Assembly (NCBI GenBank): GCA_002898575.1
Contig: BEHT01000002.1
Coordinates: 1-64,000, forward strand
Source: a bacterium HR17
Lineage (GTDB): Bacteria > Armatimonadota > Fervidibacteria > Fervidibacterales > Fervidibacteraceae
DNA length: 64,000 nucleotides
Direction: 5' to 3'
Part shown: piece after piece, positions 33,039 through 40,694 of the stretch
How positions within the stretch are numbered: position 1 is the first letter of the stretch
How the letters are laid out: each line of letters starts with the position of its first letter
Notes under the pieces: generated by a model
What the model saw: the letters and a program-made list of their open reading frames with translations, nothing else
Told to the model about the DNA's origin: nothing
Database searches by the model: none
Made by a program: the position numbers and the translations under genes

Positions 33039-33240
33039 AACCCGAATGGCGAAGACAGGACACCTGCTTGCTCACAGTCAACAAACGGACGCCGTCGTTG
33101 CACAATGTCCCTGGCAGCCACAACACTGTCGTCCGTTTCCGTCAAGTGCTAAACTGTCTAACGCAGGGGGCGAACGCATCGGTGTATCTCCGTGATGGGG
33201 ACAAGGGGGTGATAGCCGCCCGTATTTGGAGGGTCGTCTC

Positions 33241-33804
33241 GTGGAACCTGTGCGGAACATCTTGGAGCAGTTCATCGGGCAATTTGCCTCACCGACATGG
33301 TTGCGCGATGTGCTGCAAGCCAAGTGGCGTCAGATCGTCGGGGAACAGTTAGCCAGGCGCACCCAAGTGCGGCAGGTGAAAAACGGTATCGTTACTGTCG
33401 TCGCTAGCACCCCTGCGATCGCCCACGAATTGCAATTCCGCAAAGATGAACTGCGGCAACGCATCCGCCACATCGCTCAATTTGAGCCGACGGACATCCG
33501 CGTGCGTATCGGCGTCATCCGCCCTGAATTGCCTGCATCCGCTCAGCGCTGGGAGCGCCAAGTAGACCGCATCGTCCTCACCGCCCGCGATCAATCTGTC
33601 ATTGAGCGAGCGGTTGCCCCCATCACTGACCCACAGTTGAAGGAGCAAGCCCGCAAAGTCTTTGAGCGCCTCCTACGGATTTCCTTGTGGAAGCGCCGGC
33701 ATGGGTTCAAAGAATGTCCGAAGTGTCAAGCGCTGTATCGCGGGCACCGCACCCTTTGTCCCGTTTGCCGCGTTCCGTTGCGCCGCTTCCCCTCCCGCAA
33801 CTGA
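33241..33804 (+). CDS. DciA-like (DUF721) protein with C-terminal zinc ribbon
   Basis: 187 residues from the GTG at 33241, which has GGAGGG 7 bases upstream; a TTG at 33226 is possible. The N-terminal KH-like DUF721 domain has KWRQIVGEQLARRTQV, then GIVTVVASTPAIAHELQFRKDELRQRI (partly shown). The C-terminus has CPKC and CPVC spaced as a zinc ribbon. DciA proteins help load replicative helicase in bacteria without DnaC. The zinc ribbon is an addition I do not associate with standard DciA. The 3' end overlaps the opposite-strand SorC gene by 98 bases. Confidence 0.75.
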   Translation: MEPVRNILEQFIGQFASPTWLRDVLQAKWRQIVGEQLARRTQVRQVKNGIVTVVASTPAIAHELQFRKDELRQRIRHIAQFEPTDIRVRIGVIRPELPASAQRWERQVDRIVLTARDQSVIERAVAPITDPQLKEQARKVFERLLRISLWKRRHGFKECPKCQALYRGHRTLCPVCRVPLRRFPSRN

Positions 33805-35770
33805 AAGGACGCCGCACATTGCCCGCAAGGAGCGCCTTTGCCAGCGAGCGGTCAACAACAAGGCAGTTGAACAGTTGGGCACGATGCGCTGCACGCACTG
33901 CTTGTGCCTTTTGTTCGCTCCGTGCGATGACGACGACTGGTTTGCCTTCCGCGACCATCTGTTGCAACTTTGTCAATGGCAGCGCTTGCACCTTTCCGTT
34001 CCATCGGTCAGGCATCAGTCGCCCTTTGCGGTCAAAAAATTGAAACAGCATCTCACCTTGCCACTTTCGGGTTTCAACCTTCAACCCCAACTCATGGGAG
34101 TAAGCCTCAATCAACTTACCCGTTCCGAAAATTCCGATGCCCGTGAACACAGCATCCAACAATGGAGCAGGTTCGTCGCTGCGGAAAGTTTTGCAGGAAA
34201 CGGAAAAAGGCAGAGAGCGCAAAGTGTTTGACGATGCATTGAAGCGCAACATCAAAGTGCCTAAAAGCGATGACGGCGCTGTTCCCAGAAGCAAAGGTGA
34301 ATGGGCGGGTGGGATATGGACGAGTGCGACAAAGGTCAACTCTTTCAACCTTCTCAACCGTTTCGTTACTTCCGTTAGAGCCAATGCTTCCACCATCGCT
34401 AACAGTGACCGTCCCCAACTTATTCCGACGCAAAAACTGTCCTTGTCTTCTGCCAGTTGCCAAAAGAATTCCTTAGCCGCTTCGCCCAATGCTGCGTAAC
34501 CTTTCTCGTCATCATCAAATGTGGGCACTACTCGCACTTCCTTCAACTTCCAAGTTTCCAGCAGAGCCAACTCTAACTCATGTTCCACCGATGGCGGTTT
34601 CACTTTCAACTGCACCAAAGGCAACTCATCGTCATCGCCTTGCATTGCTTCGTCCAACAACTTGGGCACTTGTTTTCGGCTCAAATGCAATCGTTTGGCG
34701 ACGGCTTTGTTGGAAAAATGACCTGTTGAATTGCCATAACGCAAATGGGCGACCCGAAACCTTTGGCTTATTGTCCACCACCGTTGGCGTTGTGGGACAT
34801 CGGCAAGGCGGTGTCTCGGTGTCATTTGACGCAACACAGCAACAGCACAACGGTCATCGGTGACGAGGGCGTTGAACAACAAACCACCAGCCCTCTGCGC
34901 TCGGTAAGTTGCCGAGAGCGCTTCAGCATCCGTAGCGAGGGCTACGACCCATTTGCCTTTCTGCACCATCTTTTGCAACAAAGACAGCGGGATGGCATGA
35001 ACTTGTGGGCAAAGGGGAGCAGTGTCAAAGAGAGAACCGTTACGAGTCAAGCGATAACCTAAAACCTCAGCAGCGACACCTTTTTGCCTGAGCGCCTCAT
35101 CGGGCTTTTGCACACTAACGAAGGCGAAGTCCAGTGTATCGGTTGAAAGGTGCGATGGTTCAACGGTCACTTTCGGTTTGGGCGCATCGGGGGCAACCAA
35201 AGTTTGCCAGTGGCGGGCTAAAAGTTCACCCAGCAAAATGTCCGCTGTGATGCTGGTCGGTTGCCTGCCACCTTGACAATTGAGCGCAAACAGGCTCAAA
35301 CTCATAAGCCTTGACAAATCTAATTCTTGCAAAAAGGCTTGAAGGGCTAAACCGCCAGAAATGCCGATGGCTGTCCCGTCTACAAAGTGATGTGCAAAGT
35401 TCTGAAAGGCAGCAATCCCCAAATAGCGTTCGTTGGCAGCCTCATCCAAATCGGCGACGCTCGGGATAACGATGACCCGTTTTAACCCTTGCAAAACCCG
35501 CTTCAATTCTTCCCCCAAAGGTGCATCAACGGGCGGATGAAACTTCACATCCAGCAAATCAACGGTTCGTGAGTCATTCAACGCTTGCAAAACCAATCTT
35601 CGCAGTTGCGATGGAGACCGTTGCGAATAAGGCATCCAGTTTTTCAATCGCTCCACAACTTCCTTTGGCGCTCTCGCTGACCGAACTATGGAGGTGGGGG
35701 CAAAGCGAAGAGCGAGGATGCGATAGAGGTCACGGACGCTTAGCCTTTGTGCCCTCGTTGAAATTGTCAT
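33707..35770 (-). CDS. Regulator with two tandem SorC-type sugar-binding halves
   Basis: 687 residues from the ATG at 35770. The order is: a degenerate HTH-like segment (about 5-90), a SorC sugar-binding domain (about 95-360, IVIPSVADLDE, DGTAIGISGGLAL, PQVHAIPLSLLQKMV and FNALVTDDR), a SorC-type HTH (about 380-420, KAVAKRLHLSRKQVPKLLDEA), and a second SorC domain (about 440-650, VRVVPTFDDDE, CVGISWGRSLLA, VQALPLTKLQQMV and FNCLVVDRS). Standard SorC regulators have one HTH and one domain in about 320 residues. The last 30 residues run antisense through the DciA gene and may be a read-through tail. It is divergent from the pseudopilin gene and is probably a sugar-responsive regulator of that block. 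Confidence 0.8.
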   Translation of the reverse strand: MTISTRAQRLSVRDLYRILALRFAPTSIVRSARAPKEVVERLKNWMPYSQRSPSQLRRLVLQALNDSRTVDLLDVKFHPPVDAPLGEELKRVLQGLKRVIVIPSVADLDEAANERYLGIAAFQNFAHHFVDGTAIGISGGLALQAFLQELDLSRLMSLSLFALNCQGGRQPTSITADILLGELLARHWQTLVAPDAPKPKVTVEPSHLSTDTLDFAFVSVQKPDEALRQKGVAAEVLGYRLTRNGSLFDTAPLCPQVHAIPLSLLQKMVQKGKWVVALATDAEALSATYRAQRAGGLLFNALVTDDRCAVAVLRQMTPRHRLADVPQRQRWWTISQRFRVAHLRYGNSTGHFSNKAVAKRLHLSRKQVPKLLDEAMQGDDDELPLVQLKVKPPSVEHELELALLETWKLKEVRVVPTFDDDEKGYAALGEAAKEFFWQLAEDKDSFCVGISWGRSLLAMVEALALTEVTKRLRRLKELTFVALVHIPPAHSPLLLGTAPSSLLGTLMLRFNASSNTLRSLPFSVSCKTFRSDEPAPLLDAVFTGIGIFGTGKLIEAYSHELGLKVETRKWQGEMLFQFFDRKGRLMPDRWNGKVQALPLTKLQQMVAEGKPVVVIARSEQKAQAVRAAHRAQLFNCLVVDRSLAKALLAGNVRRPFSCGRGSGATERGKRDKGCGARDTALDTSDIL

Positions 35771-35830
35771 CGTTCTGATCACCGCCTCTCGCTGGTGCGA
35801 AACAAAATTGTTTCTTGACAACTTTCGTAG

Positions 35831-35851
35831 CGTCGGGGCTTGCCCCCGACG
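35831..35851. promoter_or_regulatory. Palindrome in the SorC/pseudopilin intergenic region
   Basis: CGTCGGGG (35831-35838) pairs perfectly with CCCCGACG (35844-35851) over a 5-base gap, 61 bases upstream of the SorC start. It could be an operator for the regulator or an unrelated repeat; the sequence gives no way to decide. Confidence 0.35.
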
Positions 35852-35912
35852 GTCGTTAAACTGCCAAAATGACGCACTGCTGTCAAATTGTCCCCAACCT
35901 GTTGACACCAAC

Positions 35913-35983: not shown

Positions 35984-36802
35984 ATGCAACGGCATTTCGG
36001 TTTCACCCTGATTGAATTGCTGGTTGTGATAGCGATAATTGCGATTTTGGCAGCGATGCTGTTTCCGGTGTTCAGTCAAGTCAGGGAGAAAGCGCGACAA
36101 ACGACTTGCCTGTCCAACCAGAAGCAAATTGGATTGGCGTTCATGGCTTACGCTCAAGATTACGATGAGATGCTCCCACCAAGCAACTACGCTCCAGACC
36201 CTAACGCTCCCAATTGGGTTTGGCAGCAGTTCGTTGAGCCTTACATTAAAGGCAACTTTCCCAGCAATGTTGTTGCCTCACAAAATCAGCGCATCAGCAT
36301 CTTCGTTTGCCCCAGTTGGGACAGAAGTTTGGGCACACTGGGAGCAGATATTTCCAGTTGGCTGCAGTGGATGGTGACCCGACCGTCCAGCAGTTACTGC
36401 AGCAACTATTGGGTCATGGGCAGTTTTGACCGACTTTTGGCTCCTGCTTTGCGTCGTCCGCCTGTTTCTTTGGCTCAAATTCAAACTCCCGCCCAAACCG
36501 TTTTGGCAGGTGAAGGGTTGGGCACTTGCGTTTGGTCGCCTGGCGACGATACGGGTCCGCCTTACCCCCATGCTTCCTACCGTGATTGCAGTTACAACTA
36601 TGTCTACGGTCGTTTCCGCCACAACGACGGGGCAAATCACATCTTTTCCGATGGTCACGCCAAATGGTTCAAATCCGTCATGCCCAGTTTCACGAGAACG
36701 GGTCCAAACTACGCAAACATCATCCCGAACAGAAGCACTGCCAACATCGTCTATCGTCGCAGTTTAGCGCCCAACCCTGCTGGCTGGTTTCGTGACGATT
36801 GA
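35984..36802 (+). CDS. Type II secretion-like pseudopilin, DUF1559 / H-X9-DG family
   Basis: 272 residues from the ATG at 35984 with GGAGGGA upstream. The prepilin cleavage site is GFTLIE with the hydrophobic helix [18 protein letters not shown]. Near the C-terminus, [19 protein letters not shown] carries the H-X9-DG signature. Such proteins are abundant in Planctomycetota, Verrucomicrobiota and Armatimonadota and are often near carbohydrate genes. It would be processed by a prepilin peptidase and anchored at the cell envelope. It starts the rightward run pseudopilin, phosphodiesterase, broken hydrolase. Confidence 0.92.
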
Positions 36803-36863
36803 ACTGAGAATGCAACATGTCGCGTTCAACCCACTAAAATCGTGAAGGCAGGTGAAAAGGCTG

Positions 36864-37814
36864 ATGAACCGTCGGCAATGGCTGAAAGTGATGGTGGTGA
36901 CCACACTGATGGGTTGGTTGACCCTTATTGAAGGCAAGGGAGTTGAACGACTGGTGATCATCGTCAGCATTGACGGTGGCAAAAGTTCGGCAATAAAAAT
37001 GTTGCTTTCGGAAAACAAGTTGCCCAACCTGAAACGGCTGATGGACGAAGGCAGTTACACCTTGACAGCGCAAACAGTCATCCCCAGCAGCACTGCACCC
37101 GCTCATGTCTCCATGCTTACGGGCATTGATTATCCCAAGCGATTTCCCGATGACGAAGCGATTGTCAAGCAAAACGAACCTTTTGACGAGAATCGCCATA
37201 AACCTGTCTCCGTCACAACCGTTTTTGAAGTTGCAAAGCAAGCGAGTTTGCGGACGGCGCTGATAGCGGGAACAGGCAAACGCATCAAGTATGTGGAAAA
37301 ACCCAACACTTTGGATGTCGCCCAGTATCTTCCCAGTGACGACGAAAGGTTGCAACTTGCCATTGATTTGCTGAGCGATGAGCGGAAGCGACCACACCTT
37401 TTGTTCTTGCACATGACGGAGACCGATCACGCAGGACACAAATACGGTTGGGGCAACGACGAAAAAGGCATCAAACCTTCACCTGAGTATCTGCAAGCGC
37501 TGCAAAATATTGACCGTCGCATCGGCAAGTTGGTGAAAACGCTGCAAGAACTCAAACTTTGGAAGCGGACGCTCTTAATCATCACCGCTGATCATGGTGG
37601 CATTGACAAAAAACACGGCGGCAAAACGCCCGACGAGTTGACCATCCCTTGGATCGCTGCAGGTGGACTGGCTCGCAAAAGCAGCGAGTTGCGAACGGAA
37701 CGAACTATCTTCGTCTATGACACTGCTGCCACTGCTTTGGGGGCGTTGGGTTTGCCTGTTCCTTCCGACTGGGATGGGAAACCTGTTTGGGAATCGCTGA
37801 AGAGCAGCCTTTGA
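36864..37814 (+). CDS. Tat-exported type I phosphodiesterase/nucleotide pyrophosphatase-like protein
   Basis: 316 residues from the ATG at 36864; a GTG at 36852 is an alternative. The start NRRQWLKVMVVTTLMGW is a twin-arginine signal. Alkaline-phosphatase-superfamily metal residues are all visible: Asp in VSIDGGK, the nucleophile Thr in SSTAPAHVSML, Asp/His in TETDHAGHKYG, Asp-His in TADHGG and the last His in KKHGGKTPDE. Substrates in the family are nucleotides, phosphodiesters or phosphonates; none is indicated here. It lies 61 bases after the pseudopilin gene. Confidence 0.85.
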   Translation: MNRRQWLKVMVVTTLMGWLTLIEGKGVERLVIIVSIDGGKSSAIKMLLSENKLPNLKRLMDEGSYTLTAQTVIPSSTAPAHVSMLTGIDYPKRFPDDEAIVKQNEPFDENRHKPVSVTTVFEVAKQASLRTALIAGTGKRIKYVEKPNTLDVAQYLPSDDERLQLAIDLLSDERKRPHLLFLHMTETDHAGHKYGWGNDEKGIKPSPEYLQALQNIDRRIGKLVKTLQELKLWKRTLLIITADHGGIDKKHGGKTPDELTIPWIAAGGLARKSSELRTERTIFVYDTAATALGALGLPVPSDWDGKPVWESLKSSL

Positions 37815-37860: not shown

Positions 37861-37937
37861 TCGGAGGACTGCTCTCCTGAGCAGCCGAAAAAATTGGTGC
37901 GAAAAATCGGCGCGTCAGGCGACGCACCCTACGAGGA
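37861..37937. repeat. 77-bp palindromic (BIME-like) element, copy A
   Basis: Two hairpins inside terminal inverted ends: CTGCTC-TCCT-GAGCAG (37869-37884) and GCGTC-AGGC-GACGC (37912-37925), flanked by TCGGAGG on the left and CCTACGAGG on the right. It has the same length and layout as the copy at 63453-63529, with compensated stem changes (CTGCTC/GAGCAG here, GGCGGCTC/GAGCCGCC there). It lies between the phosphodiesterase and the hydrolase pseudogene. Confidence 0.75.
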
Positions 37938-38061
37938 ACTGCAGAAAGGAAAATTCAACAAAGCCCTCTCATTGCATTCTGCGGGATTTGAACGGCAAAA
38001 TTCTCACAAAGGTTCAAAGGTTAGCGACTTACTCGCAACAGCCAATTGGGGTAATGTGGCA

Positions 38062-39464
38062 ATGAGGTTACGGGTTAGCGCATCGGTGATAGCGTTGTTG
38101 ACAATTTTGCTCCCAGCAACAGTAACAGCCGAACAGGAAACGGTGCGTTGGAATGACTGGCAATTGACTTTTGATAGCCAAACGGGAGATTGGCTCAGTT
38201 TGAGATGGCGGGGACAAATCATCGCCAGAGAGCCTCAATCGGGCAACTTGGCATCGGTGGATATTTCTGTCGGCGAAAGGGAAGGGCAACGGCGATGGCT
38301 CATTGAAGGTCGCTTGTCAACCTCTCGCCTCACCTATTGGCACTTTGACCCGAAAACCGCCACGCTAACTTTGACCCGAGAGGTTTCTGTTGACAAAGGA
38401 CGATGGCAGTTTCAGGAACTTATCCAGTTCGGCGCTTTTGACAACCCCAACCGCATTACCCGCAATTTGCGTTTGACTTGGACGGGCAATTTTGAAATGC
38501 GACCATCGGGTCGGTGAACGAGCGCTGAATGGGGCGTCGGGCAATTGTTGGTTCAGCAAGATGATACCGAACATTGCTTTTTGTCAACGATGCTCGCCGT
38601 GACCCCGCTGCAACTCATCTGTGGTCAACGGACGACACCGTCTTCGTTGCCTATGAATTTGTAGCGATGGGTTGGGCTGAGCCAAACGAGCCTCAAACTG
38701 TCGGGATAGCATTTCTTGAGGTCGTGCCGACAAATTTGCCGACAGCCCTCAGAACGGCTTTTTGGCGCTTTTATGACGATGTGGGCATTAAAGTTCCTCC
38801 TGACCGACCCGATTGGGTTCACAAGGTTGCTCTTTACTCCTTTGATGCTGGCGGGACAATCGGAAGCGATTTCAGAGATTTAGATGGTCTGGGCACACCC
38901 GAGGAGTATAAGGCTCTGATTTCGGAAGCCCATCGGTTGGGATTGAAAGTTTGGTAAGACATCGTCCCTCACGGCGGAAGCCCCGAGCACGGCAAAGTGA
39001 AAGGCAACAAGCCTTGGTGGTTGGTGCTTGATGAAGATGGCAACGCCCTCAACTATTGGTGTTTTGACTTCCGCGAACCAGAATGGCAGCGCTACATCGG
39101 AGAAGTTGCCGAGTATTATGTCCGAACTTTTGGCATTGACGGTTTCAGGGTTGACGCTGTCGGCGGAAGTCGCACTATGAATTGGCGACGAGAAGGTTTC
39201 CCTCCTGCAGCGAAAGTTCCATCTAATGTCCCAGCCGATTGGTGGCAAAGCGAATTGACAAAAGTTGGTGGTCAAGTCCCACCTTTGCCTTACGAACGGG
39301 GCAGTTTGACCTTGAGGGAAGGCGGGTTGCAAAGGCTTCAAGTCATCCGACAAGCGACCAGAAAGCACAACCCTGATAGAGCGATTTTAGGCGAAGTGGG
39401 CATCGTCCCTTCCATGCAAGAAGCCGAGTACAAGTTGAAGTTGTGCGGTAGAGGGGAAGCATGA
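38062..39464 (+). pseudogene. Glycoside hydrolase (GH13-like catalytic core), decayed
   Basis: Opens with a signal peptide at 38062 (MRLRVSASVIALLTILLPA) and a beta-sandwich domain with WNDWQLTFDSQTGDWLSLRW. Damage: an in-frame TGA at 38515, a frameshift before 38574, an in-frame TAA at 38955 in the middle of the conserved LGLKVW-DIVPHGG, and a missing C-terminal region. The catalytic core is still readable: FGIDGFRVDAVGG with the nucleophile Asp and ILGEVG with the acid/base Glu. It would have been a secreted alpha-glucan or related glycosidase. Its end overlaps the next start. Confidence 0.85.
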
Positions 39465-40694
39465 AGGTGACAGCGACGGATTACTTGGGACGAAGGTGGC
39501 GGTGTGCAGCGTGTGGGCAGGCGCGTAGCGTCCCGACCCGTTGGGTGGAAGTGGCTGAGGGCGTGCTGGCGCATTTGCCTGACACCATCCCAGCGGACGC
39601 GACACCGCTGGTCGTCGCCGACGAAATCGCTTGGGAAGTGGCGGTGCGAACGGTGGCGCATTTGTTGCAATCTGCCTGTCCCTCAGTGCGCACCGTCGTT
39701 TTGCCAATCGCTTTGCATGCGACGGACAAAACGGCGGAGTTTTTGATGGAACGCTTGTCAACGGACATCACAACAGCGTTGGCGGTCGGGAGCGGTGCGG
39801 TTAACGATGTCGTCAAGTGGGGCGCGACCCAGCGGGCAGTGCCTTACATCACTGTCCCGACGGCTGCCAGCGTCAACGGCTACACCTCGCCTATCGCAGC
39901 GTTAACGGTGGATGGCGTCAAGGGGACACTGCCGTGTCATCCGCCTATCGGGGTGCTGGCCGAACCGCGCACCGTGGCGTCTGCGCCTTTAGCGATGACA
40001 GCAGCAGGTTATGCCGATTTGGATTGGCAAGTGGCTCATCGGTTGTGGGATGAACCTTATTGCCCTTTGCCCCGCCGTTTGATCGCTTTCGCCGATGCGT
40101 GGTCGTTGGACCACTTGCGAAAGTTGGCTGCCAGCGGACAAAAAGCGGTCGCTGAACTGCTGTTGGCGCTCATCGCTGCGGGCATCGGGATGACCATCGC
40201 CGGGTCATCCGCTCCCTCGTCGGGGGGTGAACATCTCATCTCGCATTGGCTGGACATTCAAGCCGACCGTCGCGGGCGCTCGCCTGCCCTGCGTTGGGCT
40301 GCAGGTTGGCGTCGGAACGCTTGCGGCGTTGGCGCTCTACGAACTTTGGCTGGAGACTGAACTCGGAGGGCGGCTCTCCTGAGCCGCCATAGATCATCCA
40401 CTTTACGAACTTTGGCTGGAGACTGAACCGAGGGAGTGGCGGACAGATCCGGAAGCAGTGCGCCCGCCGCCAGACCGAGCCGCCGAATTTGCGGAACGCT
40501 ACGGGCAAAGAGCAGAAGCGGTCGGGGCAGCGACCCATCCACATCACATCGGCGTCTCGCGGGGCGAGATGAAGATAGCGATTTTGCATGCCCGCGAAAT
40601 TCGGCGGCGCTGGACGATCTTGGACGCTGCCTCTCTCGTCGGCGTTTCGCCCGACCGTTTGGACGAAGTGATGCAGCGGTGCAGCTGGCGATGA
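39461..40694 (+). pseudogene. Glycerol-1-phosphate dehydrogenase-like gene (AraM/EgsA family), frameshifted and interrupted
   Basis: The first 280 codons are intact: WRCAACGQARSVPTRWVEV, nucleotide-binding AVGSGAVNDVVKWGA, PTAASVNGYTSPIA, and metal-site GEHLISHWLD. A one-base shift near 40292-40310 moves the frame, after which GLQVGVGTLAALALYELWLETE is readable. A 66-bp insertion (palindromic element plus repeated 25 bp) adds a TGA. The tail then continues in frame with FAERYG and HAREIRRRWTILDAASLVGV to 40694. Relatives reduce dihydroxyacetone phosphate to sn-glycerol-1-phosphate. Inactive unless the errors are sequencing artefacts. Confidence 0.8.
40363..40403. repeat. Half palindromic element (copy B) inserted between 25-bp direct repeats
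   Basis: TCGGAGG followed by the hairpin GGCGGCTC-TCCT-GAGCCGCC (40369-40388) is the left half of the 77-bp element. It is flanked by identical 25-base direct repeats at 40338-40362 and 40404-40428 that begin TACGAACTTTGG. The repeats look like a target duplication made on insertion into the dehydrogenase gene. Confidence 0.8.

Follow-up and report, generated by a model that had tools for sequence, protein, structure and literature searches.

The regulator gene and its surroundings

The window, i.e. the whole stretch of 64,000 nucleotides that was analysed, carries on its minus strand an uninterrupted reading frame for a protein of 687 amino acids, with an ATG at 35770 and a stop at 33707. 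Two helix-turn-helix (HTH) domains and two effector-binding domains of the SorC type alternate along this chain (Table 1). At its far end the regulator gene is convergent with a DciA-like gene (33226-33804) and overlaps it tail to tail (33707-33804); the DciA-like gene ends in CxxC pairs. On the other side lies a divergent gene for a DUF1559/prepilin-type protein, followed by a gene for a type I phosphodiesterase/sulfatase-like protein. Farther downstream, a GH13/GH66-like gene is present in three broken frames (37894-39461), with a weak Pfam match in the last piece only, and behind this broken glycosidase gene a member of the iron-containing alcohol dehydrogenase family was located (39461-40360; Fe-ADH_2, 3e-27).

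Table 1 Features of the regulator locus (positions in the window)
Feature	Position	Strand	Evidence
Tandem SorC regulator, 687 aa	33707..35770	-	open frame; PF04198 in four stretches, 1.9e-35; AlphaFold pLDDT 79.9, pTM 0.73
HTH 1, residues 12-72, 3-4 helices	35555..35737	-	model helices; residues invariant in six paralogues; core identity 0.475
Effector-binding domain 1, residues 83-316	34823..35524	-	PF04198 2.2e-10 (half); LsrR profile match 1.1e-17
HTH 2, residues 328-384	34619..34789	-	model helices; profile alignment to LsrR HTH
Effector-binding domain 2, residues 395-649	33824..34588	-	PF04198 8.5e-25 (half); LsrR profile match 4.9e-21
C-terminal tail, unconserved, residues 652-687	33707..33817	-	absent from paralogues; pLDDT ~30
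Candidate operator box 1, CTGCCAAAATGACG	35861..35874	.	paired-box test: controls 0/48, shuffles 4/300
Candidate operator box 2, TGTCAAATTGTCCC, 20 bp from box 1	35881..35894	.	same paired-box test
DUF1559/prepilin-type gene, divergent	35984..36802	+	PF07596 2.7e-10; N_methyl PF07963 1.1e-8; ATG at 35984 probable
Type I phosphodiesterase/sulfatase-like protein, probable target	36852..37814	+	PF01663 3.1e-32; same family downstream of the C10 copy

Two SorC modules in one chain

The four stretches matched by the Pfam family Sugar-bind (PF04198) represent two domains, each split in two. Cut at residue 318, the halves (half 1, 34817-35770; half 2, 33815-34816) scored separately above the curated cut-off, and both thus possess the effector domain that characterizes the SorC family. 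Profiles built for each half from six paralogues aligned with each other across 293 columns, the HTH region among them (99.9%, E 1.8e-35), and each of the two profiles found LsrR, SorC and further structurally characterized members of the SorC family. LsrR was also the best structural match of the full-chain AlphaFold model; fold matches comprised LsrR, SorC, CggR and DeoR. Because the whole-chain model matched mainly via its second half, the first half was modelled apart, and its best model (pLDDT 81.2; the other four of five, 52-68) aligned with full-length LsrR over 327 columns (Foldseek E 2.1e-13). The sequence-only reading had described two SorC domains in a single chain. Domain search, profiles and predicted structures of the full chain and of the first half agree with this description, and its reservation that the first half might not be SorC-like is removed by the Pfam, LsrR profile and Foldseek matches of that half.

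The homeodomain-like HTH located N-terminal to the effector domain is characteristic of the SorC/DeoR subfamily. Its members LsrR of E. coli, SorC of Klebsiella and DeoR of B. subtilis share this HTH followed by a NagB-like phosphosugar-binding domain, and the subfamily provided the best sequence and fold matches to the tandem regulator. CggR of B. subtilis, a member of the SorC/CggR subfamily, shares the fold of the effector domain, but has a winged HTH of ~100 residues and a single module. The protein is not a DeoR or LsrR orthologue according to the NCBIfam equivalog cut-offs (76 bits vs 420 and 60 vs 486). One module per chain is usual for SorC proteins, not strictly defining. Known SorC/DeoR proteins consist of one module of ~310-345 aa per chain and assemble from four chains, whereas two diverged modules are present here in 687 aa, and two in all intact paralogues. 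The regulator belongs to a well-known family and represents a new variant in architecture.

The HTH ahead of the second effector domain, recognized before from the letters, was confirmed: in the sequence profile HTH 2 aligns to LsrR from the HTH of LsrR onward, and its helices are present in the model. The first HTH had been called degenerate, which does not hold. Its core is better conserved among the paralogues than that of HTH 2 (pairwise identity 0.475 vs 0.38), AlphaFold predicted its helices at a fair to good level of confidence, and the third of them contains many arginines. The sequence profile reaches only the end of HTH 1; the domain is covered by the model helices and by the structural alignment with full-length LsrR. 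HTH 1 is atypical in sequence and has a longer turn, yet it is not decayed.

Paralogues, distribution and origin

A search of the whole genome with PF04198 gave 23 stretches, which fell into seven loci, all of them tandem: the window copy (C2), two copies on C21 (C21a and C21b) and one each on C10, C7, C5 and C27. A single-module SorC gene was not found in this search. One intact frame of at least 651 aa was present at five of the seven loci, on five contigs; at C21b the gene is split and a piece of the first half is missing, and at C27 the frame is interrupted close to its end. Another, partial genome of the same genus (G001, 61% complete) has one tandem locus that covers both halves, with a frame break near the start. 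Copies with broken frames were taken unmended. That an assembly error merged two neighbouring genes, a case the sequence-only reading had considered, or that the frame is open by chance, is refuted by the paralogues and has practically no probability left: the broken frames at C21b, C27 and G001 do indicate some decay or sequencing error in the family, but the same architecture occurs at seven loci on six contigs, five of them with intact frames, and at the G001 locus in a second species.

Within the phylum, the tandem-profile search detected the architecture in only two of 291 genomes. Strong matches in Verrucomicrobiota (388 genomes) and Pseudomonadota (398 genomes) were all single modules of ~320-390 aa, with no tandem among them, and only single modules were obtained in scans of a species-level genome collection (with one short motif) and of plasmids. 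The layout, which had been unfamiliar to the first reading, thus recurs outside this genome at one further locus of the same genus, and was absent from the matches in ~1,075 other genomes of three phyla. The genome searches used a loose first pass with few candidates scored per genome and the collection scan a single motif, so rare distant tandems may have escaped. Open papers yielded nothing on tandem SorC proteins, and to our knowledge none has been described. So far, the tandem SorC architecture is confined to one genus. A different fusion was seen in another genome of the phylum (L066:1462-3327, minus strand), where an ABC-transporter ATPase (PF00005) and a SorC Sugar-bind domain (7.3e-61) form one chain of 622 aa.

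In a maximum-likelihood tree of the halves and a small set of single-module relatives, all first halves formed one clade (100/99) and all second halves another (97/95), and both clades together were set apart from the single-module relatives (100/99). The branching largely matches between the half clades; the window copy, C7 and G001 are grouped in both. One clade per half suggests a single internal duplication prior to the expansion, and this order of events explains the tree most simply.

Prepilin genes next to the regulators

At all seven loci of the genome a DUF1559/prepilin gene is divergent from the tandem SorC gene. The genome (G000) has 57 DUF1559/prepilin matches; with an assumed ~2,900 genes we estimate the chance of a random DUF1559 neighbour at ~2% per locus, which makes seven out of seven very unlikely. 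Duplication of regulator and prepilin gene as one block fails to explain the pairing, because most of the seven neighbouring prepilins resemble prepilins elsewhere more than they resemble one another. The neighbour of the G001 tandem locus is not a prepilin gene and had no Pfam match. Behind the prepilin genes, phosphodiesterase genes were present at the window locus and C10, a beta-helix protein at C21a, a GH38 enzyme with a BadF-type ATPase at C7 and a GH42-like protein at C27. Seven other DUF1559 genes, chosen for a regulator-like upstream gene, were preceded by genes for LacI, GntR-Peripla_BP or AraC proteins. Like the tandem SorC proteins, these are local sugar regulators adjoining a prepilin gene, which suggests that the tandem proteins fill the same slot. 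They differ in being single-module members of other families and, in the examined cases, in lying codirectionally upstream, whereas the tandem SorC genes are divergent.

A candidate operator of paired boxes

A palindromic motif close to GGCAAATTTGCC recurs in the intergenic regions of the tandem loci. Two boxes at a distance of 17-22 bp were required in a leave-one-out test, with the motif trained on the other loci. A box pair was detected in seven of eight intergenic regions, spaced mostly by 20 bp, while equally good pairs occurred in 0-4 of 48 control upstream regions and in 0-4 of 300 dinucleotide shuffles; for the C5 copy this test found no pair. The G+C content was 0.57 in the control regions versus 0.50 in the tested ones, a difference for which the shuffles allow. 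The pair at C21a is a perfect inverted repeat of 30 bp, GCAAATTTTGC-N8-GCAAAATTTGC. In unsupervised discovery the motif was not significant at width 16, where 23 of 40 control upstream sets scored equally well; with widths of 14 and 24 it was weak, hardly above random control upstream sets. Therefore the paired boxes are seen as a candidate operator, though a well-supported one. The operator of the SorC/DeoR subfamily has two halves, and the paired boxes suggest the same for the tandem regulators. A promoter scan found no strong promoter to which the boxes could be related, and Rfam detected no RNA element between 33200 and 36900.

A palindrome at 35831-35851, the perfect G+C-rich hairpin CGTCGGGGCTTGCCCCCGACG, had been proposed as the binding site. 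It occurs once in the genome and no counterpart was seen at the other tandem loci, hence it is probably not the operator. A second palindrome, GAAACAAAATTGTTTC (35799-35814), just upstream of the regulator start, is much like the core of the B. subtilis DeoR operator; it may be an extra site and is regarded as a second candidate only.

Effector pockets

SorC-family proteins bind a phosphorylated sugar, which lowers their affinity for DNA. The pocket motif GG..K / LFNxLVTD, whose lysine we take to contact the ligand, is kept in most first halves. In the window copy, GG and K of the first half are lost (ATDAE-ALSA), while the sister first halves keep GG..K; the second half of the C5 copy has lost K. 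These losses in different halves suggest that the demands on each of the two pockets differ from one paralogue to another.

The first reading had suggested that the fused pair could sense two sugars. Effector domains that bind different phosphosugars, and so place the locus under an AND/OR logic on two substrates, would agree with the retention of GG..K and LFNxLVTDE in the first half of most paralogues, with a K or R in four of the five second halves whose site is readable and with the divergence of the halves into separate clades. Against it, the window copy lacks GG and K in its first half and C5 lacks K in its second, so that at least some copies probably retain one working site, and we consider such a two-input sensor rather unlikely. 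A division of labour, in which one half (in the window copy the first) would be ligand-blind and serve structure and DNA binding while the other half senses the sugar, takes up just this loss of the GG..K stretch, together with the weaker PF04198 score of the window first half. It appears doubtful as well, since across the tandem family the effector domain of the first half is better conserved than that of the second (0.422 vs 0.362) and the affected half varies between paralogues.

A probable covalent repressor dimer

We consider it probable that the regulator is a covalent SorC/DeoR-type repressor dimer, of which two chains would form a pseudo-tetramer on the paired boxes and repress the prepilin/sugar loci. 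The idea of a pseudo-dimer, voiced already in the first reading, is well supported; the assembly of two chains, the repression with ligand-triggered release and the class of ligand are inferred. DeoR and CggR of B. subtilis are dimers of dimers, in which each half-operator is recognized by a pair of HTHs, and the effector domains, which respond to a phosphosugar, connect the two half-operators (PMC11229326). This arrangement of CggR on two half-operators resembles the layout proposed here, and the boxes ~20 bp apart are compatible with such a dimer of dimers. Since one tandem chain brings two HTHs and two effector domains, two chains would suffice. In an ancestor of the genus, two full HTH-effector modules would have become joined through internal duplication, so that a pair of chains could present four HTHs and four effector domains to the two palindromic boxes between the regulator gene and the divergent prepilin gene. 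The bound protein would repress the prepilin gene and the downstream sugar/phospho-ester genes, and probably its own gene too, until a phosphorylated sugar of the same pathway binds and the repressor leaves the DNA. A more specific form of the covalent repressor dimer is tentative: a genus-specific, heterotypic pseudo-tetramer of two chains, in which inner and outer half-sites would be read by different HTHs and the pockets would be tuned in each of the seven paralogues for sugar use at prepilin loci.

Significance

The genome encodes seven versions of a two-copy, fused sugar-sensing DNA-binding regulator, each back to back with a gene for a surface protein. The likely role, that of a sugar-responsive local repressor, would be ordinary; the assembly would be unusual. 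If the model is true, these proteins represent a naturally occurring, covalently linked form of a sugar-responsive tetramer, and mutation of one half at a time would separate the roles of the DNA-binding interface, the effector interface and each pocket. DUF1559 prepilin genes are numerous in this genome and poorly understood as a class; a regulator for their loci, together with a candidate operator, is now at hand.
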